The translations under genes were made by a program, and so were the position numbers. The notes beneath the pieces were generated by a model. It did no database searches, was not told the origin of the DNA, and worked only from the letters and a program-made list of their open reading frames with translations. A stretch of 64,000 bases of DNA from Acidimicrobiales bacterium (GTDB lineage: Bacteria > Actinomycetota > Acidimicrobiia > Acidimicrobiales > Aldehydirespiratoraceae): assembly GCA_040219515.1 (NCBI GenBank), contig JAVJSI010000008.1:1-64000 (forward strand), in the 5' to 3' direction. Positions 2,733-42,890 of this stretch are shown piece after piece (positions within the stretch are counted from its first letter, which is position 1; every line of letters begins with the position of its first letter).

Positions 2733-4027
2733 ACGGCGACCGCTGGATCGTGCTGGGACTCGCCCACCCCAGGGCCGCATGGTTCCGGGATCTCGCCCGC
2801 TGGTCGAGCACGGCAGTGGTGCCCGTCGACTTCGTGAAGTGCGCGTCACCCAACGAGGTCCGGGCCCGCATCCGCGGCGGTCGGGCCTACTCGGCACTGC
2901 TCGTCGGCGGCGACGTCAGCGGACTCGACCGCGACCTCGTCGAGACGGTCCGCAGTGCCGGCGCCGCCGTCATTGCGGTCGATCCCACCGTGCCCCGGGG
3001 CTGGACCGAGCTGGGCGTGGCGGCAGTGCTGCCGGCCGCCTTCGGCCGCGACGATCTGCTCACGGTCCTGGCCGACCACGCCGTGCCGATCTCCGCCGTT
3101 GCGTCGCTCCCCCACCCCGAGCCCGTCGATGAACCGTCGTGGCGGGGACGACTGATCGCCGTCGTCGGATCCGGCGGCGTCGGCGCGTCGATCACCGCGA
3201 TGTCGATCGCCCAGGCCTTCGGCGCCGAACCCAGCAACCATGCGATGGTCGTGCTGGCCGACCTGGCGCTGCACGCCGAGCAGGGGATGTTGCACGACGC
3301 TCGAGAGCTCAGTCCCGGCATCCAGGAGCTCACCGAGGCCCACCGCGCGGCTCGGCCGCCCATCGACGTGGTGCGATCGCTCACCTTCGAGGTCGAGGAC
3401 CGGGGGTACCACCTGATGCTCGGACTCCGACGGCATCGCGACTGGACGGCGATCAGGCCCCGGGCCTTCGACGCGGCACTCGACGGGCTTCTGCGGTCCT
3501 ACCGGATCGTCGTTGCCGACGTCGACGCCGACACCGAGGGCGAACACACGACCGGCTCGATCGACGTGGAAGACCGCAACACCATGGCTCGGTCGTCGAT
3601 CACCCGGGCCGACCTCGTGGTCGCGGTCGGCAATCCCTCCACCAAGGGACTCCACTCCCTGGCTCGACTCGTCCGGTCAACACGCGACCACGGCGTCGAC
3701 CCAGCTCGCATCGTGCCGCTCTGCGCACGGGCGGCCAAGGGCGCTCGGCGGCGGGCCGAGGCGGTCAGGGCCCTCGCCGCGCTTCTGTCCGGCGACGCCG
3801 ACCCGGTGGGCAATCCGGTCTTCACGGCCGAGCGGGGCGACCTCGAAGACGCGCTTCGCGACGGCTTCCGCCTACCGCCCCAGGTCGGTCGACCGATCCA
3901 CCGGGAGCTGACCCGGCGGCTCGAAAGCCTTTCACCCCGCAGGTTCGCACCCGACCCGTCCCTCGACGGCTCGCCGGTCCCGGTCGTCCCGGGTTCGCTC
4001 GGTGCGTGGGCCGAGGAGGCTGGATGA
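2729..4027 (+). CDS. tadZ: TadZ/CpaE-like MinD/ParA-family ATPase of the pilus locus
   Basis: A 432-residue protein. Residues 1-135 resemble a degenerate receiver-like domain, as in CpaE/TadZ. The P-loop near residue 147 reads GSGGVGASIT, so the lysine of the usual GKT Walker A motif is replaced and the signature lysine of ParA proteins is also missing. TadZ family members commonly carry such atypical P-loops; they bind nucleotide weakly and act as polar localisation factors for the Tad machine. A Walker-B-like strand (RIVVADVDAD) lies near residue 260. The gene overlaps cpaB by 4 bases and the ATPase gene by 4 bases, so the three are probably translationally coupled. Confidence 0.82.
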   Translation: MNGDRWIVLGLAHPRAAWFRDLARWSSTAVVPVDFVKCASPNEVRARIRGGRAYSALLVGGDVSGLDRDLVETVRSAGAAVIAVDPTVPRGWTELGVAAVLPAAFGRDDLLTVLADHAVPISAVASLPHPEPVDEPSWRGRLIAVVGSGGVGASITAMSIAQAFGAEPSNHAMVVLADLALHAEQGMLHDARELSPGIQELTEAHRAARPPIDVVRSLTFEVEDRGYHLMLGLRRHRDWTAIRPRAFDAALDGLLRSYRIVVADVDADTEGEHTTGSIDVEDRNTMARSSITRADLVVAVGNPSTKGLHSLARLVRSTRDHGVDPARIVPLCARAAKGARRRAEAVRALAALLSGDADPVGNPVFTAERGDLEDALRDGFRLPPQVGRPIHRELTRRLESLSPRRFAPDPSLDGSPVPVVPGSLGAWAEEAG

Positions 4028-5292
4028 GCATCGCCGGTGACGCCAACCCTCTCCTGGCCGTCGAGCGACGGGTCCAGGACCGGGCCAAGGACGAGGCCAT
4101 CGACCTCGACGCCGAACGCTCGACCGACGCGCTGGCCGCGATCATCGCCGATGAGGTCGAGACATGGAACGACGATCACCGTCGCGGACTACGGCCCTAC
4201 CCGCTGCACGACGCCGACCTGGTCGTCGAGCGAGCGCTGCGCAACCTCGTCGGCTACGGACCCCTGGCCCCATTGCTTCTCGACGACGACGTGTGGGAAA
4301 TCATGGTGAACGCGCCCGACAGCATCTTCGTCAAACGCCATCGAGGGCCCTCCGGCTATCACGACGAGGTGTTCCACGACGACGACCACGTCGTGCGGGT
4401 GCTCACCAAGATCCTCGACGACGCCGCACAGGCGCATCGCACGCTCGACCCCAGCCAAGGACTCCAGGACGCTCAACTCGATACCGGGGCCCGGCTTCAC
4501 ATCGTCCACAGTGACGTGTCACGCGGCGGCCACGTGATGGTCAACATCCGCAAATTCACCGGCGTGGACATCCGCAGTCTCGACGAGCTCGTCGCGCGAG
4601 CGATGCTCACCCACGAGGCGGCGGCGTTTCTGAGGCGCTGCGTCGAGGCCCGCCAGACCATCGTCGTTGCAGGCGCTCCCGGCGCGGGCAAGACCACGAT
4701 GCTCAGCTGTTGTGCGGCGGAGCTGGATCCGTCGCTGCGCGTCGTGATCGCCGAGGAGGTCTTCGAGGCCGACGTTCCGCTCCCCAACGTCGCGAGCATG
4801 CAGACCCGGCCCGGCCGACCCGACCGACCCGAGATCGACCTCCGTCGACTCGTCTCCGGTTTTCTGCGAATGGCGCCGGATGTCGCGATCGTGGGCGAGG
4901 TTCGCGACCGCGAGGCCCTCCCGCTGCTGCTCACCCTCTCGTCGGGCGTCAAGGGCTTCACCACGATCCATGCCGGTTCGGCACGCCAGGCGCTGAGTCG
5001 GCTGAGGTTCATCTGCCAACTTGCCGACACGAGCAACGAGCTCCCCATGTCCGCGCTCAACAACCTCGTGTCGGAAGCGATCGATGTGGTCGTGCACTGC
5101 GTTCGCACGGCCGATGGGCCTCGGGTTTCGTCGATCATCGCGGTCGAGGATCTCGCCGCCGCAGCCGACGGAAACCAGTTCACCACCACCGAGCTCTTTC
5201 GCCGCGAGCCCGGTGGTTCGTTGCAGCGAACCGAGAACCGACCCGTTCGACTCCATCACGCGTTCGCCGCCGCAGGACTCGACGGCCCATGA
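4024..5292 (+). CDS. tadA: TadA/CpaF secretion ATPase driving the Tad pilus
   Basis: A 422-residue cytoplasmic hexameric ATPase of the type II/IV secretion family. The start is the ATG overlapping the previous stop; the longer open frame upstream is an out-of-frame shadow of tadZ. The N-terminal domain contains NLVGYGPLAPLL and WEIMVNAPD, typical of CpaF. Walker A is GAPGAGKT at about residues 217-224. The Asp box and Walker B region follow (RLVSGFLRMAPD, IVGEVRD), then the His box (GFTTIHAGSARQAL). All catalytic elements look intact, so this should be an active motor. It is coupled by ATGA overlaps to tadZ upstream and tadB downstream. Confidence 0.93.
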   Translation: MSIAGDANPLLAVERRVQDRAKDEAIDLDAERSTDALAAIIADEVETWNDDHRRGLRPYPLHDADLVVERALRNLVGYGPLAPLLLDDDVWEIMVNAPDSIFVKRHRGPSGYHDEVFHDDDHVVRVLTKILDDAAQAHRTLDPSQGLQDAQLDTGARLHIVHSDVSRGGHVMVNIRKFTGVDIRSLDELVARAMLTHEAAAFLRRCVEARQTIVVAGAPGAGKTTMLSCCAAELDPSLRVVIAEEVFEADVPLPNVASMQTRPGRPDRPEIDLRRLVSGFLRMAPDVAIVGEVRDREALPLLLTLSSGVKGFTTIHAGSARQALSRLRFICQLADTSNELPMSALNNLVSEAIDVVVHCVRTADGPRVSSIIAVEDLAAAADGNQFTTTELFRREPGGSLQRTENRPVRLHHAFAAAGLDGP

Positions 5293-6176
5293 TCACGCTC
5301 GGCGTCGCCGCTCTCTCCGCGCTCGGTACGGGCCTCCTCTACTCCGCGCTCGCACTCGATCATCGAGGTTGGGGCATCGGCGTCCGGGTGAGCGGATCGA
5401 CACGATCTCGTCGAGTCGACGTCGACGCCTGGCTCCATCAAGCGGGTCTCGACGAGGTCGATCGTCGAGCATTCCTCGGCGTGGTCGCCGCTCTCGGTGT
5501 GCTGTGCGCGCTCGTCGGCTACGTCGCGTTCGGCGGCGTCGCGCCCGCCCTCAGTATCGGGATCTTCGGCGGTTCGTTCCCGGTCGCCTCCTATCGCAAC
5601 CGACGTCTTGCCGGTCGGCGCCGAGCGCAGGAGGCGTGGCCGCGCATGATCGAGGAGGTGCGGGTCCAGACCGCCTCCCTCGGGCGGTCCATCCCACAAG
5701 CCCTGTTCGAGGTCGGCGCCCGGGGGCCTGCGGAGCTTCGGCCCGTCTTCGCCGCTGCCCAGCGCGAATGGCTGCTCACGACCGACCTGAGTGCCACCTT
5801 CACCGTACTCAAGGACCGCCTCGCCGATCCGACCGCCGACATGACCTGCGAGACGCTGCTCCTCGCCCACGAGCTCGGGGGAACCGATCTCGATCGACGG
5901 TTGGAGGCGCTGGCCGAGGACCGCCGAGCGGACGTGCAGGGACGCAAGGACGCCCAGAGCCGCCAAGCCGGGGCAAGGTTCGCCAGAGTCTTCGTGCTCC
6001 TCGTTCCCGCCGGTATGGCCGCAGCCGGCGCGTCGATCGGCAACGGTCGCGAGGCATATCGGTCGGCCACCGGGCAGGCCATCGTGATGTTCGCGATCGC
6101 CCTCGTCATGCTCTGCTGGTTCTGGGCCGGCCGCGTGATGCGGCTCCCCGAACCCCAGCGGGTGTTCAGGAGCTGA
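5289..6176 (+). CDS. tadB: TadB, inner-membrane platform protein of the Tad pilus
   Basis: A 295-residue membrane protein with a T2SSF-like cytoplasmic domain. Membrane helices are visible near residues 4-20 and 62-98 and at the C-terminus (two hydrophobic stretches between about 238 and 285). The central cytoplasmic part contains EAWPRMIEEVRVQTASLGRSIPQALFEV, the conserved entry into the T2SSF fold, with ELGGTDLDRRLEALAEDRR near its end. TadB pairs with TadC to form the platform on which the TadA ATPase acts. The ATG overlaps the tadA stop, and tadC begins one base after the stop. Confidence 0.85.
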   Translation: MITLGVAALSALGTGLLYSALALDHRGWGIGVRVSGSTRSRRVDVDAWLHQAGLDEVDRRAFLGVVAALGVLCALVGYVAFGGVAPALSIGIFGGSFPVASYRNRRLAGRRRAQEAWPRMIEEVRVQTASLGRSIPQALFEVGARGPAELRPVFAAAQREWLLTTDLSATFTVLKDRLADPTADMTCETLLLAHELGGTDLDRRLEALAEDRRADVQGRKDAQSRQAGARFARVFVLLVPAGMAAAGASIGNGREAYRSATGQAIVMFAIALVMLCWFWAGRVMRLPEPQRVFRS

Positions 6177-6177
6177 G

Positions 6178-7083
6178 ATGACGCGAACACTCGTCGCCGC
6201 CGGACTGATGATCTTCACCGGGTCGGCCCTCCTCCTCTCGGAACTACGGTGGTTTCGCCGTCCGAGCATGGGCGATCGACTGCTTCCCTACGCGCCGGGC
6301 GCAGTGCGGTCGACCACTGCGGGTGTGTTGTCGGTGGCCTCGTTCCGCGAGGTCGTCGCTCCCCTGGCCCGCCTGACCGGTGAACGGATTGCCCGCCTCT
6401 TCGGCGTGAGCGAGGAGCTGACCGTTCGGCTTCGGAGGATCCACTCCCCCCTCGACGCCACGAGCTTTCGTGTCCGCCAGTTGGCCTGGGCCGGTGCCGC
6501 CGTGGCCGGAGGCACTGCGATCGCCGTCGCGCTGACGCTGTCCGCACCGCTGGCGATGCTGCTGGTGTTCGGGTCGCCGCTGCTCGCATTCCTCCTGCTC
6601 GAGCAACAGGTCGCCGAGGCGTCTCGCGCCTGGCAGGAGCGACTGCTCCTCGAGCTCCCAGTCGTCGCTGAACAACTGGCGATGCTGACCTCGGCCGGGT
6701 GGTCTCTGGGGGCAGCCCTGCACCGGATCTCGGCGCGCGGCAGCGGCAACTGCTCGGCCGACCTGCGACGGGTCGCCCAGCGCATGCAGCAGGGCCTGAG
6801 CGAACAGGCAGCCCTACGCGAGTGGGGCGAGCTGGCCGACGTCGATGCGCTGGACCGCCTGATCTCGGTGTTGGCGATGAATCGGGAGACCGCCGATCTC
6901 AGTCGGCTGATCAGCGACGAGGCCCGCTCGATGCGCCAGGAGTCGCAGCGCAACCTCATCGAAACGATCGAGCGGCGCAATCAACAGGTCTGGGTCCCGG
7001 TGACTGTCGCGGCGCTGATCCCCGGAGTTGTGCTCATGGCGGTGCCGTTTCTCGACGCGCTGAGCCTGTTCGGATCGCCGTAG
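6178..7083 (+). CDS. tadC: TadC, second inner-membrane platform protein
   Basis: A 301-residue T2SSF-domain membrane protein. An N-terminal helix (residues 4-22), a pair of central helices around residues 100-141, and a C-terminal helix ending in VVLMAVPFLDAL frame a cytoplasmic domain. That domain has LELPVVAEQLAMLTSAGWSL and ISVLAMNRETADLSRLISDEARSMR, the typical TadC signature, with a RRNQQV motif before the last helix. It should partner TadB. Its ATG is one base past the tadB stop. About 75 non-coding bases separate it from the pilin-like gene, the only real gap in the locus, and allow separate expression of the pilin. Confidence 0.85.
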   Translation: MTRTLVAAGLMIFTGSALLLSELRWFRRPSMGDRLLPYAPGAVRSTTAGVLSVASFREVVAPLARLTGERIARLFGVSEELTVRLRRIHSPLDATSFRVRQLAWAGAAVAGGTAIAVALTLSAPLAMLLVFGSPLLAFLLLEQQVAEASRAWQERLLLELPVVAEQLAMLTSAGWSLGAALHRISARGSGNCSADLRRVAQRMQQGLSEQAALREWGELADVDALDRLISVLAMNRETADLSRLISDEARSMRQESQRNLIETIERRNQQVWVPVTVAALIPGVVLMAVPFLDALSLFGSP

Positions 7084-7159
7084 TGGGCACCACCACCCAG
7101 AACGAAGTCGCACGAGATTCATCAACCGACAACCGACAAGCAAGAGGGAGCACCTGAAG

Positions 7160-7369
7160 ATGAACCGACACACGAACGCCCGGACCGCCGATCGTTCCGC
7201 CACCCGGCTCACCGACGACCGTGGGGAGGGAGTGATCAGCACCGCGATCGCCGTCCTCATCGTCGCGTTCATCGGCGCGGCCATGTGGGTTGCCTTCAAC
7301 GGCATCTGGACCGATGCCGAGGCCAACATCGAGCGCGAGGTCGGCAACATCGGTGCCAGCGCGCCGTGA
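7160..7369 (+). CDS. Small Flp-pilin-like single-helix protein of the Tad locus
   Basis: A 69-residue peptide preceded by a strong GAGGGAG ribosome-binding site at 7144-7150. A charged leader of about 22 residues ends in DDRGEG. It is followed by one long hydrophobic helix (ISTAIAVLIVAFIGAAMW) and a short acidic tail. That is the layout of a Flp pilin: leader, cleavage glycine, membrane or polymer helix. However, the canonical glutamate-tyrosine at +5/+6 after the cleavage glycine is absent. It lies where flp genes usually sit, directly before tadE genes, and its good ribosome site and preceding gap fit a highly made subunit. I infer it is the pilus subunit. Cleavage by a prepilin peptidase is unproven, and no such peptidase is in the window. 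Confidence 0.7.
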   Translation: MNRHTNARTADRSATRLTDDRGEGVISTAIAVLIVAFIGAAMWVAFNGIWTDAEANIEREVGNIGASAP

Positions 7370-7782
7370 GCCCGGCGGTCGTCGCCCGGGGCGACCGAGG
7401 CGTCGGCACCATCGGCACCGCCGCCGCGTTCGTGGTCTTTCTGCTGTTGATGTTTACCGCCGTGCAGGTGCTGTTCAACCTCTACGCGACATCGATGGTC
7501 ACCGCAGCGGCGCACGACGCGGCCCGCGAGGTCGCGTCCTTCGATTCGGCGAGCGACCGATGCGGCGCCGCGATCGACGCCGAGGCCGCGTTCCGGGATC
7601 ATCTCGGCGCCTACGCCGAAACGGGGCGGGCGCGACTCGAGTGGACCTGCGCGTCGGCCGATGTGGTGCGTGTACGTGTGGTGGCGACTCATCCCTCGAT
7701 CCTTCCCGCGCGCTTGGGAGGTCTGCTGTCACTCTCCGAGCTCGACCGCACGATCGAGGTGCGGGTAGAGGACGACCGGTGA
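7366..7782 (+). CDS. TadE-like pseudopilin
   Basis: A 138-residue protein starting with a GTG that overlaps the pilin stop (GTGA). A short leader with GDRGVG precedes a membrane helix (AAAFVVFLLLMFTAVQVLFNLYA), then SMVTAAAHDAAREVASF, the conserved helix of the TadE family. The remainder is a small extracytoplasmic domain with two cysteines (near residues 65 and 89) that could form a disulfide. TadE-type proteins are processed like pilins and are thought to act as minor subunits or assembly factors. The longer open frame starting at 7285 is a shadow of the pilin gene and is not used. Confidence 0.8.
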   Translation: MSPAVVARGDRGVGTIGTAAAFVVFLLLMFTAVQVLFNLYATSMVTAAAHDAAREVASFDSASDRCGAAIDAEAAFRDHLGAYAETGRARLEWTCASADVVRVRVVATHPSILPARLGGLLSLSELDRTIEVRVEDDR

Positions 7783-8243
7783 CCCTGCCGAACAACCAGA
7801 GGTGCCGAGGCGATCGCGGGCAGGTCGGCGGTATGGAGGTGCTGCCCTTCGGATTCCTCGTGTTCGTGAGTCTCACGCTGCTACTGGTCAACGTGTGGGG
7901 CGTGATCGACGCGAAGTTCGCCGTCACCACAGCCGCACGAGAAGCCACCCGAGCTTTCGTCGAGTCGACGACCGAGACCGAGGCCACCCGCACGGCCACA
8001 CAGCGGGCCCGGGAAACCCTCGACGCCTACGGGCGGGGCGACGATCGAGCAACCGTCCACTCCCCCGTTCTCGCCGACTCCTTCGGGCGGTGCGCCCGCG
8101 TCACGGTGCGGGTGACCTATGACGTGCCGGCGATCGCCATCCCGTTCCTGGGTGGCTTCGGGTCCGCTACGACCGTCGAGTCGAGCCACACCGAAGTGGT
8201 CGACCCCTTTCGCAACGGCCTCGACGGTGTGGCGCAGTGCTGA
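7779..8243 (+). CDS. Second TadE-like pseudopilin
   Basis: A 154-residue protein with a GTG start overlapping the previous stop. The leader GDRGQVGGME precedes a hydrophobic helix (VLPFGFLVFVSLTLLLVNVWGVID), followed by KFAVTTAAREATRAFV, the TadE-type amphipathic helix. The C-terminal domain has two cysteines, near residue 105 and at the very end (VAQC), and ends in a strand-rich segment. It probably forms heteromers with the neighbouring TadE-like and TadG-like proteins. No start codon nearer the helix is attractive. Its stop is overlapped by the next gene's GTG. Confidence 0.78.
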   Translation: MTLPNNQRCRGDRGQVGGMEVLPFGFLVFVSLTLLLVNVWGVIDAKFAVTTAAREATRAFVESTTETEATRTATQRARETLDAYGRGDDRATVHSPVLADSFGRCARVTVRVTYDVPAIAIPFLGGFGSATTVESSHTEVVDPFRNGLDGVAQC

Positions 8244-8728
8244 AAGCGCCAGTGTTGAAGGAAAGAGGGTTGAACCAGCGATCGGCTTCGACAGGGGCGA
8301 GCGATCGTGGCACCGTGCTGCTGTTGTTCCCGGCCGCCGCGCTGATCATGCTCCTGCTCGGTGCGATCGCCGTCGACGTCGCGCTCACCCAGGTGCGAGC
8401 CCGCGAACTCCAGTCCGTTGCCGCATCGGCGGCGAACGACGCCCTCGCCGCACTCGACGTGGTTCGGTTGCGCAACGGCGACGGCATCGTGATTGGCGAA
8501 CCGGCCGCCCGAACGATCGCCGAATCGTCCGTGGCGGCCGGATCGCTCTCCACCGCCAGTGTGGAAACGGTCGTCGTCACCACCGATGCGCAGGGTCGCA
8601 CGGTCATCGCCGTGACCCTGTCGCTCGATGTCGACCTCGTGATGGCGCCCGCCGTCGGGGACCTCGACCGGATCACGCTGCGCCGCACCGGACGGGCGAC
8701 GATCCTCGGATCCGAGCCTGGCCCCTGA
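8237..8728 (+). CDS. TadG/TadE-like pilus-locus membrane protein
   Basis: A 163-residue protein and the last gene of the locus. A basic leader with SDRG precedes a membrane helix (TVLLLFPAAALIMLLLGAIAVDVA) and QVRARELQSVAASAANDALAAL, which matches the TadG/TadE-like N-terminal pattern of helix plus Ala-rich amphipathic helix. The remainder is a small beta-rich extracytoplasmic domain, far shorter than proteobacterial TadG. The GTG at 8237 overlaps the previous stop by 7 bases. A TTG at 8270 is an alternative. It converges on cysM with only 19 bases between the stops. Confidence 0.72.
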   Translation: MLKAPVLKERGLNQRSASTGASDRGTVLLLFPAAALIMLLLGAIAVDVALTQVRARELQSVAASAANDALAALDVVRLRNGDGIVIGEPAARTIAESSVAAGSLSTASVETVVVTTDAQGRTVIAVTLSLDVDLVMAPAVGDLDRITLRRTGRATILGSEPGP

Positions 8729-15484: not shown

Positions 15485-15873
15485 GGGGCTGATCGGTTTC
15501 GACGTTGGGAACCGGATGCAACAACGTGCGACCAGAGTTGCTCAGACTCTCAAAACGGGGCAACAACAGAGACGCCGATTCGGACGATCTCGCTCTCGCA
15601 GCCTGACCTAGTCAGTTTGTAGAGAGTCATCGCGACCAGCAATGGCACGCGGGGCCTGACCATCGCAGCCTGTCACCAGAAGCGGTGGTGGACCGTAGGG
15701 AAAGACCACTGACCGCAGGCAAAGACCGCTGACCCAGGGGAAAGACCCAGTGGTAGGGCCCTCGTGGCCCTCCTGACCCGGCAGGGTGGCAGCCACAAGC
15801 CACGTTCACGGGAATGGTCGTAGCGCGGTGGGCAACCACCTGACGGACGAGGGTTCGATTCCCTCCAGCTCCA
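15485..15873 (+). ncRNA. ssrA: Transfer-messenger RNA (tmRNA)
   Basis: A 389-base tmRNA that rescues stalled ribosomes and tags the nascent chain. The 5' end GGGGCTGATCGGTTTCGACG and the 3' GGTTCGATTCCCTCCAGCTCCA are diagnostic. The seven-base acceptor stem (GGGGCTG with CAGCTCC) pairs fully with one G-U. The discriminator A at 15873 is followed by CGG, so the CCA end is not encoded and must be added. The T-arm is GAGGGTTCGATTCCCTC. The coding part ends at a TGA at 15604-15606. The pseudoknot region between 15620 and 15790 includes repeated GGGAAAGACC/GCAAAGACC units. The RNA is a single uninterrupted molecule, not the two-piece form. Confidence 0.95.
15559..15606 (+). other. tmRNA proteolysis-tag reading frame
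   Basis: The in-frame tag read back from TGA (15604-15606) is GNNRDADSDDLALAA if the resume codon is GGC at 15559. The C-terminal LALAA is the part recognised by ClpXP-type proteases. The start of the tag is less certain than its end, because the resume codon is set by upstream structure. GGC is the best placed codon but is a less common choice than GCA/GCC. Confidence 0.7.
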
Positions 15874-15894
15874 CGGGAACCCTCGGGGTTCCAT

Positions 15895-33855: not shown

Positions 33856-34560
33856 TCAGGGGTCGATCAACCGACTCCGCATCGCATAGAGCACTGCCTC
33901 GGTACGGGTGGCGAGCTGCAGCTTCTCGAGGATATTGCGGACATGGTTCCGCACCGCGTGATGCGTCATGTCGGTGGCCGCGGCGATCGCCGCGTTGTCC
34001 GCGCCCTCGGCCATCGCCTCGAGCACCGCGACCTCACGCGCAGTGAGAATGGGCGAACGCCATGCGTCGTCGGTGTTGCGGGTGTCGACGTCGAGGGCGA
34101 CACGCTGGTCGGCGCGACGTGCGAGCGCCGCGAACTCGTGCAGCAGACGACCGGCGAGCGGCGGGGACACGAAACTGTGCCCCTTCGCCACCTGGCGAGC
34201 GGACCGAGCGATGTCGGTGATCGACGTCTCCTTGAGGAGGTAACCGGCCGCGCCGGCCTTCACCGCCTCCAGCAGATCATCGGTGTCGTCGGACACGCTG
34301 AGCATCAGTACGCGGGTGGTCGGTACGGCGTCGAGGATGCGGCGGGTCGCTTCGATGCCCCCGATCCCCGGCATGCGCACGTCCATCAGGACGACGTCGG
34401 GGGCCAAGGAGGTTGCGAGGTCGACGGCCTCTTCGCCGTCCGCCGCCTCCGCCACCACGTCGAGGTCGGCGGCGTCGTCGAGCTCCATCACGAGGCCGCG
34501 TCGATAGAGCGCATGGTCGTCGACCACGAGTACGCGCAACTCGACCGCCCTGTCCGGCAT
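33856..34560 (-). CDS. NarL/LuxR-type response regulator (orphan)
   Basis: A 234-residue two-component regulator. The receiver domain has VVDDH, phosphoacceptor Asp60 in VVLMDVRMPG, and the Thr/Ser and Lys positions in RVLMLSVSDD and GYLLKE. A linker leads to a LuxR helix-turn-helix (LTAREVAVLEAMAEGADNAAIAAATDMTHHAVRNHVRNILEKL) near residues 168-212. The HTH departs from the usual KEIA pattern (DNAAIAAA), but the rest is standard. No histidine kinase gene is nearby, so its partner is unknown. It sits between hpf and secA on the same strand. Confidence 0.88.
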   Translation of the reverse strand: MPDRAVELRVLVVDDHALYRRGLVMELDDAADLDVVAEAADGEEAVDLATSLAPDVVLMDVRMPGIGGIEATRRILDAVPTTRVLMLSVSDDTDDLLEAVKAGAAGYLLKETSITDIARSARQVAKGHSFVSPPLAGRLLHEFAALARRADQRVALDVDTRNTDDAWRSPILTAREVAVLEAMAEGADNAAIAAATDMTHHAVRNHVRNILEKLQLATRTEAVLYAMRSRLIDP

Positions 34561-34611: not shown

Positions 34612-35187
34612 TCAGTCGGCTTCGTCGATCAGACCGACATCGCCATCGTCACGGCGATAGACGACGGCACTGCGGCTGGTCTCCTTGTTGATGAAGAAGA
34701 AGAACCCGTGACCGAGCTCCTCCATCTTCTCGACCGCATCCTCTGCATCGAGCGGGGCCAAGTGGAACCGCTTCGTGCGCACGATGCGGGGAACGTAGTC
34801 CTCTTCCTCGACGGTCTCCGGCTCCGCGACCGCGATCGCGGCCGCGACGTCGGCCGCAGCCCGCAACGAGTCGCCGGTGCCATGGGAGCGGCGCTGGATC
34901 TTGGTGCGCAGCTTGCGGATCTGCCGCTCGAGCTTGGCTTCGGCCAGATCGACGGCCGTGAACGGGTCGGGCGCGTGCACCTTGCACCGCAGATGGTGGC
35001 CGCTGCCCTTCAGGTGGACCTCACAGAACTGCTTGTCGGAGATGCGGGGGTTCTGGGCCTGGTCGAAATGCACCCCTGCGGTCTCCAGTCCATCGAGGTA
35101 CTTGTCGAGCTGACCGATTTTCTCGTGGATCACCTCCTCCAGTCTCGGCGTGATGACGACATGCCGTGCACTGATGGAGACATCCAT
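34612..35187 (-). CDS. hpf: Ribosome hibernation-promoting factor, long form
   Basis: A 191-residue protein from an ATG at 35187 after a good GGAGG site; the longer frame reads through intergenic DNA. The N-terminal S30AE domain (MDVSISARHVVITPRLEEVIHEKIGQLDKYL, ending near residue 105) binds the small subunit. A charged linker follows, then the C-terminal dimerisation domain (YVPRIVRTKRFHLAPLDAEDAVEKMEELGHGFFFFINKE). This is the long HPF that pairs 70S ribosomes into 100S dimers in stationary phase. It is close to secA and prfB, as in many actinomycetes and firmicutes. Confidence 0.94.
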   Translation of the reverse strand: MDVSISARHVVITPRLEEVIHEKIGQLDKYLDGLETAGVHFDQAQNPRISDKQFCEVHLKGSGHHLRCKVHAPDPFTAVDLAEAKLERQIRKLRTKIQRRSHGTGDSLRAAADVAAAIAVAEPETVEEEDYVPRIVRTKRFHLAPLDAEDAVEKMEELGHGFFFFINKETSRSAVVYRRDDGDVGLIDEAD

Positions 35188-35273
35188 GCTTAACCTCCGA
35201 AGGATTGGGTCGTGGCCAGATGGTAGACGCCCGGCAAACGCCGCGCCGATCGGCGGGTTCGAACACCCAGCCC

Positions 35274-38200
35274 TCAGGCCACGTACTCCTCGTCGTTGCG
35301 GCGTCGACGCCAGCCGAGGAGGAAGAGGAACCAGGCCAGCGCGAGGGCGCCCAACCACCACACCCCGGCGAATCGGGTCGCGTCGCCGGCCTCGGAGACG
35401 GGAGCTGCCGTCGCCGAGCGCTCGACGCCGAGCGCCACCTCGTCCCCATCGGACAACGACGTGCCGTCGTCGACCGGCTCGTCGTCGAGACCGCCGGAGG
35501 CGACATCGGACTCACTGTCGCTGTTGTCGCCCCATGCGGGGCCGCCGGCAGCAGTCCCGGCGCCGCTCCCGTCGACCGGCTCTGCTCCGGTCCGGCGACT
35601 GTTCGGTCCGGTGTCGTCCGAACCCGTGTCGTCCGATCCGGTGTCGTCCGAATCCGTGTCGTCCGATCCCGGGTCGGTCGCCGGCGTGTCATCCGAACCC
35701 GTATCGGTCGCCGGCGTGTCGGTGCCGCCCTTCTCGCCGGGGGTCACGTCCTCGTCGCCGGGGGTCACGTCTTTCTCGCCAGGGGTCACGTCCGGAGCAG
35801 GATCGACGATCTCGATGGTCTGGGCGACCGCATCGGCCGGTAGGCGATTGGCATCCCCGTCCTGCTCAGCCGAGATCACACACGTGCCGTAGCCGAGGAT
35901 CATCACGTCGCCGTCGACCAGGCTGCAGACAGTGCCCTCGCCGCTGGCGATACTCAGCACGACGGTCAGACCCGAATCGGCAGTCACGACCGGCGTGTAC
36001 CGGTCGCCGACGTCGATGCTCTCCGGAGCGTCGGTGGCGAACTGGAGGATCTGCGAGGCCCGGAACACCGAGGCCTGGACCTCGGACACCATCGGAACGA
36101 CGAGATAGTTGCCGGCGTCGATACCCATCAGTGGCTCGCCGTCGATGATGATCGTTGCCGTCTTGTTGAGACCCACCTCGGCGGTGTCGAACACACCCGT
36201 CACGACAGCAGGGTCGACGCTCACGTCGTCGTCGTCGATGATTCCGCGAAGGTCGAAGACGAGGTCGGCCGCCGTGGTGCCGTCGAAGGACCGATCGTCC
36301 GCGGTGATGAACAACTGGAGGGTCGGCGCCTCGATGCTGAGGGATTCGGTGACCGAACCCTCGAGCAAGGCGTCGTTCACGCTGGTGGTCACGTCGTAGG
36401 TGCCCACCGCGGTCGGAGGGACCGAACTGGTCGGATACGTCGTGTCGCCCGTTCCGGTGTAGGCACGAGTCACTGCGATCCCCGTGGGGTCGGTCACGGT
36501 GACGAGACCGACCGGCTCGCTGGTGTAGGTCTTCGTGAGGTCCGCGGTCGACAGGGCCACGTGGGTCGTGAAGGTCTGCACGGCTCCGAACATCGTTCCG
36601 TCTCCGGTCTCGAGCCGGGGCCGCACGTGGTAGACGGTTGCCGGATCGAGCCCCGTCGCCGCGGCCGTCGCGACGACGTCGGCGTCGCCCGTCACCGGAT
36701 CGGGCGTTGCGACGTACTCGACGTCGTCGACGGTGCCGAGATCGGCTTCGTCGAGCGCAACCTCGAAGGTGGCCGTCCCGCTGCCCCCGTTTGCGTTCGC
36801 GGTGGCGCTGAGGAAGGCGGCGTCGTCATCCAGGACGGTGACATCACCGGCCACCGTGCGGGGCGGTGACGCGGTGGCGAAGGCGCCGATACCCACGGCC
36901 GAGATCGCCGCAACACGGACATCGAAGATGCTGTCGGGGTCGGGCAGCGTGAACGAGGCGTTCGTGCCGGCCGAGGCGCCCGAGGCGACCGTGGTCCAGT
37001 TCGTGGCATCGTCGGACCACTGGACCTGATAGCCGCTGATGGCCGAGCTCCCGGCACTGCCGTTGGTCCAGTTCAGGGCGGCCTGATCGCCGGTCACGGT
37101 CAGCGCAGTGATGCTGGGCTGGGCAGGAACCGTCCCGCCGACCACGGTGGTCAGCCGGGGGCTCGAACGGGGGCCGGTGCCGATTGCGTTGGTCGCCTCG
37201 ATGGTGAAGTAGTAGGTCGTCCCCGATGAGAGCCCGGTGACAGTGCGCGAGGTCGACGTCGTGGTGTAGCTCGCCGAGATGCTGCCCTCGCTGGCTGCCG
37301 ACCAGCGGATGATGTTGTAGGCGGTGATCGCGCTGCCGTTGTCGTTGACCGGATCCCAGGAGAGGGTCACGCTGTTCGACGTCGGCGACGCAACGAAGCC
37401 GGTGACGGCAGCGGGAATACCGGCCGGCTTCCCGCTCACCGAGGCGGACGGCGCGCTGCCGCCGACCTCGTTGAGCGCTCGCAGCTCGACCCCGTAGGTC
37501 CGGCCGTTGGTCAGGCCCGAGATCGTGAGCGGCGACGAGAGCGTCGGCGCCGCGACCCATGATCCGCCGTCGAGGCGATACTCGATCGTCTCGACGCTCG
37601 CCCCTCCGTCGGACGATCCCTGGCTGAAGGAGACCTGTAGGTAGCCGCCGCCGGCGACGATGCCCGAGATGGTCGGTGCATCCGGCACGTCGACCGGCGT
37701 CGCGCTGACCGGACCGGCAGCCGCACTGGTGCCGATCGCATTGACCGCCGAGACCCGCACGACGTACTGGGTACCGTTGGTCAGGCCGGTGACCGTGGCC
37801 GCGGTCGCGCTACTGGTGCCGTCGGCGAAGACCGAGAAGGGTCCGGCGGCGTTCGTCGCCACCTCGATCACATAGTCCGTGATCGAGGTGCCGCCGTCGC
37901 TCGCCGGCGCGCCCCAGTCCAACACCAGCGACCCGCCTGCGGGGGTCGCGATGAGCGACGTCGGCGCGCCAGGCAAAGCTGCCGGCGTTGCGTCGACCGA
38001 CGTCGAGGCCGCACCGGTGCCGACGGCGTTGACCGCCCGGACTTCGACCGAGTAGGTCCGGCCGTTGGTGAGCCCGGAGATGGTGAAGGGATCTGCCGCG
38101 GTGGCAGCCGATGTCCAACTCCCGCTGTCGAGGCGGTACTCGAATGTGGTCACCGGTGACCCGCCATCATCGACGAGATCCACATCGACCTCGAGCTCGC

Positions 38201-41200
38201 CGGAGTTCGGCGTGAGGCTGATGGATGGAGCATCCGGAACTGCGAGCGGGGTCACGGCCACGCGGGGCGAGCTGGCCTCGCCCTCGCCGGCACCATTGGT
38301 CGCAGCAACGTTGACGTAGAGCGTCACACCGTTCGTGAGACCGGTTGCCTCGCACGATGTGGCGGTGGTCGTGCACTGCCCGACCACCGAGCCACCGGTC
38401 GGAGCGTCGTACAGACGGGCGGTGTGACCCGTGATGGTCGAGCCACCGTCGTCGCTCGGGGCGGTCCACGAAACCGTGGCTTCGGCGTCGCCGCCGATTG
38501 CCCCGACCCCGGTCGGTGCTCCAGCCGTCGTGCGCGGCGTGCCGCTCACCGTTGCGGAGGGGGTTCCCGTCCCTACTGCGTTCGTCGCCCGCACCGCCAC
38601 CGTGTGGCTCGTGCCGTTGACGAGCCCTGCGATCGTGAAAGGACTCGAGAGGGAGCCCGCGTCGACCCACGAACCACCGTCGAGCCGATACTCGATGGCG
38701 GTGATCGAGGAGCCTCCGTCGGATCCGGCCACGTAGGTGACGTCGAGTCGGCCGTCGGCGCCGGTTGCAACCACACTCGTCGGCGCCGACGGTGTGCCGA
38801 GCGGCGCCGCCAGCAACGAGACCGAGGCCTCACCCGAACCGGCGCTGTTGACCGCCCGGAGCTGCACTGTGTACACGGTGCCGTTGGTCAGCGCTGCGCC
38901 CGAACCCGACTCCGTGGTGATCACGAGCGGCGAGCCCGTCGTCCCGGATGTCCTGGTCCGCCAGGTCGCACCACCGTCGGTGGAGTACTGGTAGGCGCTG
39001 ATCGCCGAACCGCCGTCGGAGGCGGGCGCCGCGAAGGTGGCCGTGAGGATCGCATCGCCGGGCGCGACGTCACTGAGCGTCGGGGCATCGGGGGTCGTGC
39101 GAACGGCGACACTGGCCGGCGAGGACGCCGCGCCGTCGCCCACCGAGTTCACGGCGCGCACCGAGATGTCGTAGGTGGCTGAATTGCTGAGACCGGTGAT
39201 CACGACGTTCCCCGACAGGGATCCGGTGTCGACCCAGGAACCGCTGTCGAGGCGATACTCGTAGGCGGTGATGGCGGAGCCGCCGTTGGCGGGCGTGGTG
39301 AAGCTGACGGTGGCCGTGCCGTCGCCGCCGGTGGCGGAGGTGATCGTCGGCGTGTCGGGAACCGTGGTGGTGATACCCGACGCAACCGCCGACGCCGCGC
39401 CCGGGCCGGCCGCATTGACGGCACGGATCTCCACCGGGTAGGTGACGCCACCGGTCAGCGGCGTCGTACCGTCGCTCGACAGCGTCGTGATCTGGAGTGG
39501 ACTTCCCGTCGATCCGGCGTCCCGCGTGCGCCACGTGGCACCGGCATCGGTCGAGTACTGGTAGGTGGTGATCGCGCTTCCGCCGTCGTCGGTCGGAGCG
39601 GTGAAGTCCACGTCGAGGGTGCCGTCGACGCCCGTGATCGTGCTGCCGACGATGGCGGGAGCGCTCGGCGTCGTGAGCGGCGTGCCGACCACGGTGGCCG
39701 AGGAGGTCCCCGAACCGACGCCGTTGACGGCCCGGACCTGCACCGAGTAGGAGGTGCCGTTCGTGAGGCCGGTGACCGTCAGCGGCGAGGCGGTCGACCC
39801 CGGCGACCGGGTCGACCAGCTACTGCCGCCGTTGACCGAGTACTCGTAGTTGGTGATCGGCGAGCCGCCGTTGTTCGGCGTCGAGAACGAGACCGTGAGA
39901 GCCCGGTCGGAGCCGGCCACCGAGATGGTCGGCGCCGCCGGCGTGCCCTTCGCGGTGACCGTCGACTCGTTGGAAGCCGGGCCCGACCCTGCCGCGTTGA
40001 CCGCGCGTAGCTGCACGCCGTAGGTCTGTCCACCGGTGAGGCCACTGATCGTCAGCGGGCTCGCGGTGGCAGCCGGCGAGCGGGTGATCCAAGTGTCGCC
40101 GCCGTCGACGGAGTACTCGACGTTCGTCACCGCGCTGCCGCCGTTGGCGCCGAGCGTAAAGGCCACGCTCACGGCACCGGTGTTCAGCGCGACGGCGGAG
40201 ATGGCCGGCGCTGCAGGGACCGTGCGGGGTGTTCCCGACTGGACCGCAGACGCAGTTCCTGCGCCCGCGGCATTGATGGCGCGCACCTCGACGTCGTAGG
40301 TCGTGCCGTTCGTGAGTCCGGAGATCGTGAACGAATCGGTCAGCGCCCCGGTCGAGCGCCACACACCGCCGTCGAGGCGGTAGTCGTGGCGAAGGATGTC
40401 GCTGCCGCCGTCGGAACTGATGTTGAAGTCGACGATGAGCGAGCCGTCACCCGGGGTGAGCGGCGAGACCGAGGGAGTCGAGGGAATGGTGAAGGGTGTC
40501 TCGGCAAGAGGTGTCGTGTAGGCGCCGGTGCCCGCCGCATTGACGGCGGCAACGCGGAAGTAGCGGGTCTCGCCGTTGGTCAGCCCGGTCACCGTTGCCG
40601 AGGTCGTCGTCGACGTGCCGTCGGACACCGTGGTGTAGGTCCCGCCCGCACTGGCCGCGTGCTGGATGACGTAATCGGTGATGGCCGATCCGTTGGTGGC
40701 TGCCGGTGCCGTCCACGAGAGCGCGACGGTTCCGTTGCTCGCAACCGCGGCCAGCGCCGAAGGGGCGCCCGGGACGGCGCGTGGAGTACCACTGGCCGGT
40801 GCCGAGGCGGCCGATGCACCGATGCTGTTGAGCTCGCGGATCTCGATGTCGTAGCTCGTGCCGTTGATGAGGCCGCTGACCGTGATCCGGTTCGCAGTCT
40901 CGGTCGCGGTCACCCACGCGCCACCGTCGACGCGCGCCTCGTAGCCGGTGACTGGCGCATCGCTGTCGCCGGGCGTGAAGTCGAGGTGGAGACCGGAGTC
41001 GAAGGGGACGATGACGTCGATCACTGGCGCGTCGGGAACATCGCTGGGGGTGACACCGAGCGAGGTCGTATCGGAGACCGCCCCGATGCCGATGCTGTTC
41101 ACGGCCGACACGCGGAAAAAGTAGGTGACGCCGTTCGTGAGTCCGGTCACCGTGGTTGCGGTCGCCGTCGAGGTGCCGTCGGCGAGCGTCGACCACGGAC

Positions 41201-42206
41201 CCGCCAGGTTGGTCGCCTGCTCGATCACGTAGTCGCTGATCGGGGCGTTGCCCTCTGATGCCGGCGGGTCCCAGTCGAGGTCGACTTCTCCGGTTCCGGC
41301 CGTGCCCGCGAGGTTGAGTGGCTTGCTCGGCGTGCCCTCGTTGTAGCTGATGGTCATCGAACCGTGGGCGCTGTTGCCCGCGTAGAACTCATAGACCGTG
41401 GTCAGCCCAGCGAGCCCTGCGGTCGAGTTCGCTCCCGGGTACCCGCCGAAACCGAAGTACTCCGTCGCGCTGGCGCCGCCGTATTGGACATCGCCCTGGT
41501 CGCCACCTTGCGCGCCGCCACCGCCGGCACCCGAAGCACCGCCGTCGCAGCTGAAGCCCGGACTGCAGACGAGCGCCGTGTTCAGACCGGGACGGCCGAT
41601 GGTCGAGGTTGCATCCGGCCGGGCCACGTGGTTCGGCTCCGCCTGTCGACCGACGATGGCGTAGAACTGACCGTTACCGCCGTTACCGCCGGCACCGCCG
41701 GCAACCACGTCCACACCATTGACCTGCAGGACGGTGGCGGCACCACTGCCTCCACCACCACCGGACGAGCCATTCGGCCCGGCATTGCCACCCTTGGACC
41801 CGTCGTAGCCCGACAGCGGGTTCTGCCCACCGGAGCCACCGGGCGCATTGCCCTGGCTGCTGGTGCCGATTCCGCCGCCGCCACCTACGGCAACGGTCAG
41901 CGTGTCGCCGGGCGTCACCGCGATGGTGCCCGACACGACACCGCGATAGCCGCCCGGCGTGGGCGACCCCTGCGAGTCGCCGCCACCGCGTCCGCCCTGA
42001 CCGCCGACGAGCCGCACGTTGATCGAGGTCACCCCGGCGGGCACGGTGAACGTCTCGGTGGTCCCGAGGTAGGAGAAGGTCTCGGTGATCGTCGCCGCGG
42101 CGGCCGGTGTGGCTGTGGCCAGCGCGAGCGACGCCGCCACCATCATCACAGTGACCACCGAGGTGAGGGTGCGAGTGATCGCCCGAGAAGCTGTCGTTTG
42201 TGGCAT
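35274..42206 (-). CDS. Giant secreted fibronectin type III repeat surface protein, C-terminal membrane anchor
   Basis: A 2310-residue protein. A Sec signal peptide with TPAAAA cleavage spans residues 1-38. It is followed by a beta-type Gly-rich domain (about 60-285) with many GGGG runs. Sixteen FnIII-type repeats of about 92 residues then run from about residue 290 to 1780, with recurrent TVTGLTNGTxYxxxVRAVNxxGxG, plus one degenerate repeat. MBG/YDG-like and Ig-like domains follow (about 1885-2150). A low-complexity acidic stretch with DTGSDD and DVTPGEK repeats and a single C-terminal helix (FAGVWWLGALALAWFLFLLGW) before RRRR complete it. No LPxTG motif was seen. It is probably a surface adhesin or matrix protein. 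It separates comF-like and hpf genes. Confidence 0.9.
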   Translation of the reverse strand: MPQTTASRAITRTLTSVVTVMMVAASLALATATPAAAATITETFSYLGTTETFTVPAGVTSINVRLVGGQGGRGGGDSQGSPTPGGYRGVVSGTIAVTPGDTLTVAVGGGGGIGTSSQGNAPGGSGGQNPLSGYDGSKGGNAGPNGSSGGGGGSGAATVLQVNGVDVVAGGAGGNGGNGQFYAIVGRQAEPNHVARPDATSTIGRPGLNTALVCSPGFSCDGGASGAGGGGAQGGDQGDVQYGGASATEYFGFGGYPGANSTAGLAGLTTVYEFYAGNSAHGSMTISYNEGTPSKPLNLAGTAGTGEVDLDWDPPASEGNAPISDYVIEQATNLAGPWSTLADGTSTATATTVTGLTNGVTYFFRVSAVNSIGIGAVSDTTSLGVTPSDVPDAPVIDVIVPFDSGLHLDFTPGDSDAPVTGYEARVDGGAWVTATETANRITVSGLINGTSYDIEIRELNSIGASAASAPASGTPRAVPGAPSALAAVASNGTVALSWTAPAATNGSAITDYVIQHAASAGGTYTTVSDGTSTTTSATVTGLTNGETRYFRVAAVNAAGTGAYTTPLAETPFTIPSTPSVSPLTPGDGSLIVDFNISSDGGSDILRHDYRLDGGVWRSTGALTDSFTISGLTNGTTYDVEVRAINAAGAGTASAVQSGTPRTVPAAPAISAVALNTGAVSVAFTLGANGGSAVTNVEYSVDGGDTWITRSPAATASPLTISGLTGGQTYGVQLRAVNAAGSGPASNESTVTAKGTPAAPTISVAGSDRALTVSFSTPNNGGSPITNYEYSVNGGSSWSTRSPGSTASPLTVTGLTNGTSYSVQVRAVNGVGSGTSSATVVGTPLTTPSAPAIVGSTITGVDGTLDVDFTAPTDDGGSAITTYQYSTDAGATWRTRDAGSTGSPLQITTLSSDGTTPLTGGVTYPVEIRAVNAAGPGAASAVASGITTTVPDTPTITSATGGDGTATVSFTTPANGGSAITAYEYRLDSGSWVDTGSLSGNVVITGLSNSATYDISVRAVNSVGDGAASSPASVAVRTTPDAPTLSDVAPGDAILTATFAAPASDGGSAISAYQYSTDGGATWRTRTSGTTGSPLVITTESGSGAALTNGTVYTVQLRAVNSAGSGEASVSLLAAPLGTPSAPTSVVATGADGRLDVTYVAGSDGGSSITAIEYRLDGGSWVDAGSLSSPFTIAGLVNGTSHTVAVRATNAVGTGTPSATVSGTPRTTAGAPTGVGAIGGDAEATVSWTAPSDDGGSTITGHTARLYDAPTGGSVVGQCTTTATSCEATGLTNGVTLYVNVAATNGAGEGEASSPRVAVTPLAVPDAPSISLTPNSGELEVDVDLVDDGGSPVTTFEYRLDSGSWTSAATAADPFTISGLTNGRTYSVEVRAVNAVGTGAASTSVDATPAALPGAPTSLIATPAGGSLVLDWGAPASDGGTSITDYVIEVATNAAGPFSVFADGTSSATAATVTGLTNGTQYVVRVSAVNAIGTSAAAGPVSATPVDVPDAPTISGIVAGGGYLQVSFSQGSSDGGASVETIEYRLDGGSWVAAPTLSSPLTISGLTNGRTYGVELRALNEVGGSAPSASVSGKPAGIPAAVTGFVASPTSNSVTLSWDPVNDNGSAITAYNIIRWSAASEGSISASYTTTSTSRTVTGLSSGTTYYFTIEATNAIGTGPRSSPRLTTVVGGTVPAQPSITALTVTGDQAALNWTNGSAGSSAISGYQVQWSDDATNWTTVASGASAGTNASFTLPDPDSIFDVRVAAISAVGIGAFATASPPRTVAGDVTVLDDDAAFLSATANANGGSGTATFEVALDEADLGTVDDVEYVATPDPVTGDADVVATAAATGLDPATVYHVRPRLETGDGTMFGAVQTFTTHVALSTADLTKTYTSEPVGLVTVTDPTGIAVTRAYTGTGDTTYPTSSVPPTAVGTYDVTTSVNDALLEGSVTESLSIEAPTLQLFITADDRSFDGTTAADLVFDLRGIIDDDDVSVDPAVVTGVFDTAEVGLNKTATIIIDGEPLMGIDAGNYLVVPMVSEVQASVFRASQILQFATDAPESIDVGDRYTPVVTADSGLTVVLSIASGEGTVCSLVDGDVMILGYGTCVISAEQDGDANRLPADAVAQTIEIVDPAPDVTPGEKDVTPGDEDVTPGEKGGTDTPATDTGSDDTPATDPGSDDTDSDDTGSDDTGSDDTGPNSRRTGAEPVDGSGAGTAAGGPAWGDNSDSESDVASGGLDDEPVDDGTSLSDGDEVALGVERSATAAPVSEAGDATRFAGVWWLGALALAWFLFLLGWRRRRNDEEYVA
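35611..35793. repeat. In-frame DNA tandem repeats in the tail of the FnIII gene
   Basis: Seven near-identical 15-base units (35611-35715, GTGTCGTCCGAACCC type) encode DTGSD pentapeptides. Three 21-base units (35731-35793) encode DVTPGEK-type heptads. They lie in the acidic linker before the membrane anchor. The close match between units suggests recent expansion by slippage and probable length variation between strains. Confidence 0.8.
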
Positions 42207-42326
42207 GCAGGGGCTTTCGGCCCTGTCAGACCATGGTTGAGAGATCGGCGCCGCCTACCCCGAAAGCAATGGCGAATGACACCGGCTGGCGGGGCCGAAC
42301 GACCCAGACACCGTCGCAGAGCGAGA
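42207..42326 (-). promoter_or_regulatory. 5' leader of the FnIII gene with a hairpin over the ribosome-binding site
   Basis: The 120-base leader between the ComF-like stop and the ATG at 42206 contains, just before the ATG, CAGGGCCGAAAGCCCCTG. It folds as GGGC/GCCC with CA/TG outside. The GAAAG that would serve as ribosome-binding site is in the loop and stem. A second possible stem and a CCATTGC...GGTAGGCGG stretch lie further upstream. The layout suggests translational control, but no known riboswitch class fits. Confidence 0.35.
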
Positions 42327-42890
42327 TCACCGCGTTGTCGACCGTGTCCCCGTCGACTCCCTGGCGGGGGCTCCCACTGCCCGGGTCGCGACGAGTCCGA
42401 CCACCTCGGCTGCGCCGGCCGCACACAGCACAGAGGCCCCGGCCCGAAGCGTCGACCCGGTCGTTGCCACGTCGTCGACGAGGAGCAATCGTGGACCGAA
42501 TCGCAGCCGCCGCCCCACGGCGGTGAACTCCGGCCCCAGCAGGCGCCCCTCGAGTTCACGAGCCGTCTGCGGCAGGTCATCGACCCGGCGAAGCAGTCGG
42601 CGGGCCGGGAGACCCACACGACGGGCAATCGCGCGAGCAAGCAACTCACCCTGGTCGAACCCCCGCTGACGGCGCCGCTGAGGCGAGGCCGGGATCCAGG
42701 CAACGACGTCGGCCGTCGGCGCCGCGTCGGCCATCGCCTCGGCCAACTCGGTCACCACCGTGGTCGCCCGTCCGTACTTGAGTTCCCTGACCAGATCGGC
42801 CGGATGGCCATCGTGAGCCCAGACGGCGACGATCTCAGGCTCGAGGCGGTGATCGATTTCCCCGGTGAGGGGATCACTGTGGCTTCGCAT
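42327..42890 (-). CDS. ComF-type phosphoribosyltransferase-family protein
   Basis: A 187-residue type I phosphoribosyltransferase-fold protein. The PRPP-binding motif is LLLVDDVATTGSTL near residue 135-148. The ComF opening has VRELKYGRATTVVTELAEAM and WIPASPQRRRQRGFDQGELLARAIAR. The N-terminal zinc finger found in full-length ComFC is missing; the protein is read from MRSHSDP. ComF proteins are linked to DNA uptake in competent bacteria, but many have an unclear role. It lies on the same strand as hpf and secA, as ComFC does in other genomes, but here the FnIII gene comes between. Confidence 0.83.
   Translation of the reverse strand: MRSHSDPLTGEIDHRLEPEIVAVWAHDGHPADLVRELKYGRATTVVTELAEAMADAAPTADVVAWIPASPQRRRQRGFDQGELLARAIARRVGLPARRLLRRVDDLPQTARELEGRLLGPEFTAVGRRLRFGPRLLLVDDVATTGSTLRAGASVLCAAGAAEVVGLVATRAVGAPARESTGTRSTTR

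Follow-up and report, generated by a model that had tools for sequence, protein, structure and literature searches.

Very long bacterial surface proteins that carry an N-terminal binding domain are already known. The giant surface proteins of Apilactobacillus, for example, are described as combining great length with an N-terminal putative binding domain, a repeat stalk, and a C-terminal attachment region (PMC12863079). The protein examined here has that same layout and, like the Apilactobacillus giants, appears to have been involved in sequence exchange between genera. It differs from them in that the giants are described with a beta-solenoid tip, a stalk of helical repeats (in Giant1-3), and an SH3b-like wall attachment with no membrane helix. 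For the tip of our protein, the closest described systems are of two other kinds, the glycine-rich domain of the receptor kinases ALK and LTK and the fibers of phages. In phage Pam3, receptor recognition is assigned to the glycine-rich domain of the fiber, which is a trimer with a hypervariable distal tip. In the open-licence literature, we found no description of a glycine-rich tip of the ALK/phage-fiber type on a stalk of fibronectin type III (FnIII) units that was transferred as one unit, and nothing on an MBG domain combined with FnIII or on FnIII-linked adhesion in Acidimicrobiia. A paper matching FnIII in Ilumatobacter, which deals with Ephs and ephrins, names another Ilumatobacter protein.

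The gene lies in a stretch of 64,000 nucleotides from a contig of an Acidimicrobiales bacterium (JAVJSI010000008.1, positions 1 to 64,000; hereafter, the window), and its features and neighbors are listed in Table 1. On balance, we consider the encoded protein to be probably a membrane-anchored, stalked adhesin that was acquired laterally.

Table 1. Features of the surface-protein gene and its surroundings (nucleotide positions in the window; residue numbers refer to the protein).
Feature	Position	Strand	Basis or remark
Tad/Flp-type genes (SAF/CpaB-like, T2SSF, TadE)	2016-8728	plus	
Response regulator with LuxR-type (GerE) domain, between hpf and secA	33856-34560		Pfam
hpf, S30AE and C-terminal domain	34612..35187	minus	Pfam
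hpf leader, downstream border of insertion	35188..35228	minus	GTCTAC.ATC at start, GGAGGT ahead of hpf ATG; common to relatives
Whole gene, 2310-aa stalked surface protein	35274..42206	minus	ATG start, ORF bounds exact
C-terminal hydrophobic helix and RRRRNDEEYVA tail, residues 2277-2310	35277..35378	minus	KD19 2.06 at 2279
Acidic linker, residues 2135-2276	35379..35804	minus	Net charge -34 over 142 residues; carries short repeats
15-bp repeats in acidic linker	35611-35706	minus	
21-bp repeats in acidic linker	35729-35793	minus	
Ig-like unit, residues ~2049-2134	35805..36062	minus	Cys2094 and Cys2109; similar stretch in order genomes
YDG domain, residues ~1961-2048	36063..36326	minus	Pfam, 38.0 bits, cut-off 25
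MBG_3 domain, residues ~1886-1960	36327..36551	minus	Pfam, 36.4 bits, cut-off 25
Possible 17th, divergent FnIII-like unit, residues 1786-1885	36552..36851	minus	Model and structural alignments
Sixteen FnIII units, residues 292-1784	36855..41333	minus	Pfam fn3, linkers, orthologue alignment
Glycine-rich head, residues 38-290	41337..42095	minus	Predicted TNF-like beta-sandwich with glycine-rich loops, ALK/LTK-GRD-like fold
Signal peptide, residues ~1-37	42096..42206	minus	Basic start, hydrophobic from residue 12; putative cleavage site
comF-like gene, upstream border of insertion	42327..42890	minus	Phosphoribosyltransferase domain just under Pfam cut-off

The stalk is recognized by Pfam fn3 (PF00041) at or above the gathering score (E-value 2.1e-126), with 14 stretches passing on their own; the linkers delimit 16 units, colinear in this protein and two orthologues. 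The possible 17th unit (~1786-1885) matches no Pfam family above cut-off. Its model has a pLDDT of ~80, and in structural alignments it takes the second position in tandem FnIII chains, with a pair rmsd of 6-14 Å in most such rows; the lone single-domain row listed comes from RsgI4, whose sensor domain (7cg5) aligns with Z 11.6 and rmsd 2.3. MBG_3 (PF18887) and YDG (PF18657) rose above their cut-offs once the C-terminal part was scanned alone, and the Ig-like unit at 2049-2134 has no Pfam match and no confidently predicted fold.

The two strongest hydrophobic stretches of the protein are its signal peptide (KD19 1.96 at residue 14) and its C-terminal helix (2.06 at 2279). A pattern scan for sortase anchors (LP.T[GANS] and two looser motifs) found none after residue 2000. 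An MXYO-CTERM anchor, such as that of NF045522, is a cysteine-containing motif ahead of the helix; the last 200 residues of our protein are free of Cys. For this reason, we rejected the membership of the MXAN_2561 family that the NCBIfam name of its match to NF045522 implies (254.6 bits, cut-off 150, 12 stretches, the best of them within the FnIII units).

The repeats of the acidic linker are less alike than the 'nearly identical' of the preliminary description: the 15-bp repeat has 6.4 copies with 70 per cent matches (92 per cent over 2.3 copies at period 30), and the 21-bp repeat has 3.1 copies with 84 per cent matches. A pattern of mainly wobble-base differences is confined to the few copies of the SDDTG core. 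Matches to the tail in eight family genomes other than its own (51 searched) all had E-values above 0.01 and were rejected as low complexity.

To place the gene in its chromosomal context, we searched for hpf and comF in 61 genomes from its genus, family, and order (own included) and compared the comF-hpf gap, taken as the distance between match ends and not gene ends. The comparison used one comF match in each of 54 genomes and one hpf match in each of 52. From the 52, three were left out, G044 with a comF match of E-value 1.4e-4 on another contig, and G056 and G057 with no comF match, which gave 49 usable genomes (own included). In G037, we took the hpf piece located on the contig of comF, although one on a different contig scored higher. 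Here the gap amounts to 7142 bp, versus 23-625 bp, with both genes on one strand, in 46 of the 48 other genomes. It measures 38-225 bp in all 35 other compared genomes of the family and 38-74 bp in five genomes of the same genus; G001, of the same genus and 66 per cent complete, has no hpf match. In G047, comF and hpf are on different contigs, and in G054, from another family, comF is divided between the ends of two contigs, and ~2050 bp separate the comF end from hpf. Within that last interval is an unlike ORF on the opposite strand (L125:756-2785), which reads as a secreted hydrolase. The site thus took up another gene elsewhere, and the comF-hpf interval may be permissive for insertions.

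The insertion between comF and hpf that had been proposed from the sequence is therefore strongly supported by the comparison of relatives. The LuxR-type regulator between hpf and secA had been left unlisted in the preliminary description. The preliminary description had also held that comF-hpf adjacency in relatives, combined with the same protein at a different locus in all of them, would speak against its reading. This applies by half, as comF and hpf are adjacent in relatives and the two orthologues described below are at other loci, and the insertion stands: adjacency in relatives and orthologues elsewhere together make it lineage-specific. The insertion offers a clear natural example of a giant surface protein that entered, in one piece, a conserved housekeeping locus whose empty site is seen in 35 of 35 compared family members.

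The hpf leader (GTCTAC.ATC and GGAGGT) is kept in six aligned relatives. Because it is common to them, the inserted piece runs from ~35229 to 42326 and is filled by one gene; with its own leader in place, hpf should be unaffected by the insertion. The inserted piece contains no mobile-element gene, Rfam gave no match at E-value ≤1 between 35000 and 43000, and scans found no sigma70-type promoter or terminator at either border. A hairpin before the start codon is no more stable than in shuffles (z 0.27). When each border was searched on its own, the downstream one contained just a 14-nt direct pair and the upstream one a single imperfect inverted repeat. A rival explanation, that the assembly joined a gene of another organism between comF and hpf, could draw on the contamination estimate of the genome (4.96 per cent). 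It is very improbable, as the gene is inside a 95.7-kb contig, the best outside matches of its flanks are in the same genus (66-74 per cent identity for comF, 79-86 per cent for hpf), composition is similar, and the hpf leader is retained.

The gene is rare among close relatives. The head was found in one of seven genomes of the genus (all first-look candidates scored) and in one of 51 of the family (all candidates scored), or one of 34 when only genomes at least 90 per cent complete and at most 5 per cent contaminated are counted. Candidates were partly scored, and absences are accordingly soft, in three wider scans: the head matches at least 18 of 397 genomes of the order, with G345 alone strong beyond the own genome among the matches listed; it matches at least 18 of 221 genomes of the family of G345, with G345 and G513 strong among the matches listed; and the C-terminal query matches at least 36 of 397 genomes of the order, many of which have a stretch resembling the Ig-like unit. 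The next best head match after G345 and G513, among those listed, has an E-value of 3.3e-20 and 42 per cent identity. A scan of named genomes gave at least three loci: L096, from Ilumatobacteraceae MAG bin.116 (JALHOG010000067.1), which we took as G513; L097, a head fragment in an Actinomycetota MAG; and L098, a Flavobacteriales protein. In viral contigs, seven stretches match a pattern, and none is a relative of the head.

G345 and G513 belong to another family, and their orthologues (L088, with the gene at L088:6960-15206, and L096) are 55-58 per cent identical to our protein with the units in register. The alignment with G345 has 56 per cent identity over 2154 columns, of which 17 are gaps. 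Conservation is uneven along the protein: the head is 71-75 per cent identical (75 per cent in G345; in L096, the contig ends within the head, whose first part is therefore missing), the 16 FnIII units ~58 per cent, and the MBG-YDG-Ig-like parts, which are more diverged, 28-51 per cent. The linker, whose repeats had been considered probably variable, and the anchor are not conserved in either orthologue. The orthologue tails differ from ours in having additional repeated domains, and no arginine-tailed terminal helix was found in them; from this comparison, it seems that tip and stalk remained joined and that the anchor end was replaced. The extra repeated C-terminal domains of the G345 orthologue resemble the end of the L096 protein. 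In both genomes, the gene is at most ~8 kb from one common gene group, which we take to be FDH, Fhs, and FolD, and it is on opposite sides of this group in the two, which suggests that it is mobile within that family as well.

The FnIII units had been considered old on account of their divergence, and phylogenetic reconstruction agrees. Specifically, in a tree of 48 units from the three proteins, 15 of 16 positions form clades across the orthologues; judged from this tree, those 15 positions are older than the split of the three orthologues. Units at matching positions of our copy and G345 have a mean identity of 57.2 per cent, and units within our protein a mean of 36.9 per cent (maximum 56.3 per cent); the highest identity between different positions of our copy and G345 is 60.6 per cent. 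By raw identity, the matching position is the best match for 13 of 16 units in G345 and 14 of 16 in G513, and with the protein's own units added as competitors, for 11 of 16 and 12 of 16, respectively. In these sequence comparisons, the position signal is strong though imperfect. That the order of the beads is fixed across families speaks against the common view of repeat stalks as growing and shrinking quickly.

Distances among the three genomes point to lateral acquisition. SecA of our genome is 66-67 per cent identical to those of G345 and G513, which are 83.3 per cent identical to each other, whereas the three pairwise identities of the FnIII arrays are 57.6, 57.7, and 58.9 per cent. Expressed as the distance of this copy to the two orthologues divided by the distance between the orthologues, the ratio is 2.5 (2.15-2.94) for SecA, 1.05 (0.97-1.14) for the FnIII array, and 0.73 (0.59-0.92) for the head (138 columns). 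Because the FnIII distances are equal where the SecA distances differ 2.5-fold, this comparison of three genomes suggests that the gene was acquired laterally. The same distances could reflect old paralogues and losses. Under vertical inheritance, the gene would go back to the last ancestor shared by both families and would have moved and then disappeared from nearly all relatives. The colinear, well-preserved orthologues, the lack of a mobile gene in the insertion, and a composition close to that of the surroundings (GC 0.694 versus 0.684 in the window; GC3 0.853 versus 0.875 in secA) would suit such a history, but we regard it as unlikely given the distance ratios, the presence of the head in a single genome of the family, and the short comF-hpf gap in every compared family relative.

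The AlphaFold model of the head, built on an alignment of five rows, has a mean pLDDT of 55.6, with model residues 137-228 mostly below 50; strands near both ends are well predicted and the glycine loops poorly. Two of the five rows come from L098, which itself matches PF12810 (ALK_LTK_GRD) and could steer the model. In Foldseek, the top-ranked of 21 matches with E-values ≤0.001 were ALK and LTK glycine-rich domains (best E 1e-5, prob 1.00), with TM-scores to the ALK/LTK chains of just 0.31-0.35 (query) and 0.23-0.30 (target). VIA-align gave Z-scores of 10.4-11.6 for the first 15 entries, which include ALK, LTK, the Pam3 fiber, and the Bxb1 tip, and 4.8 for the next. In BFVD, 109 viral models matched with E-values ≤0.001, several of which bear the names of tail proteins, virion structural proteins, or glycine-rich proteins.

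In sequence searches with the head, Pfam gave no match to PF12810 at E-value ≤1, Gly_rich_2 (PF21722) scored 14.8 bits, under its cut-off of 24.3, and a PDB sequence search with the head alone returned no match at E-value ≤1. The sequence link between the head and PF12810 runs solely through L098 (98 per cent probability over 64 columns). By eye, L098:10049-14569 has several ALK_LTK_GRD-like stretches, and the one tested matches PF12810 at 9.8e-23.

From the model, the head is thus predicted, with low confidence, to fold like the glycine-rich domain of ALK/LTK and the tips of phage fibers. It resembles the former in predicted fold (Foldseek E 1e-5, Z up to 11.6) but has no Pfam match at E-value ≤1, is not joined to a kinase, and is bacterial. 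Its predicted likeness to Pam3 gp24 (7ypx; Z 11.6) and the Bxb1 tail tip (9d93; Z 10.4) is also one of fold, whereas the phage domain is on a phage and the head here is on an FnIII stalk on a cell. Moreover, in contrast to the hypervariable tip of Pam3, only two head loops are moderately variable. Among relatives, blocks 71-85 (87-100 per cent), 86-112 (81-85 per cent), and 223-262 (82-90 per cent) are well conserved, and loops 113-150 (55-66 per cent) and 191-222 (55-69 per cent) less so. The conservation of most of the head suggests one common ligand or self-association, and the two loops could carry specificity. The tip, which in the model appears to have the fold of phage receptor-binding fibers and of the ALK ligand-binding domain, would offer a testable bacterial example on a cell-anchored stalk.

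Architecture and predicted tip fold indirectly favor the adhesin role first suggested for the protein, with binding itself putative. In our model, the protein would be exported by Sec, its C-terminal helix would stop in the membrane with RRRR inside, and the acidic linker would cross the wall. An FnIII unit is ~4 nm long, and the array of 16-17 FnIII-type beads would hold the head tens of nanometers out, where the head may bind to a surface or neighboring cell through a glycan or protein there. Alternatively, the protein could be a matrix scaffold or S-layer-like component, in which FnIII arrays pack side by side and heads self-associate, and no foreign receptor is bound. A head more conserved (71-75 per cent) than the stalk (58 per cent) and the trimeric state of the Pam3 fiber, with its similar predicted fold, fit this role, as would release of the orthologues, in which no basic-tailed C-terminal helix was found. 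The scaffold is nevertheless doubtful: our copy carries a hydrophobic anchor helix of its own, none of the neighboring genes scanned was recognized as dedicated to export or assembly, and Pfam found no S-layer anchor in the protein.

A membrane-anchored adhesin acquired laterally may also be an instance of a wider pattern. Tentatively, we propose that a family of cell-surface fibers in actinobacteria of this order moves between families as a whole 16-bead gene, with the tip of the ALK/phage-fiber type and the bead order kept and the anchor replaced to fit a new host (no membrane helix in the other lineage, membrane-anchored here).

A link to a Tad pilus in surface colonization had also been suggested for the protein. 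Tad/Flp-type genes are present in the same window, but at 2.0-8.7 kb, on the other strand and ~27 kb away from the adhesin gene, and a Pfam scan of the protein gave no pilus domain; we therefore see no support for this association and judge it very unlikely. Between the Tad-type genes and the adhesin gene, the window also contains a tmRNA gene (15485-15874) with the tag ADSDDLALAA.
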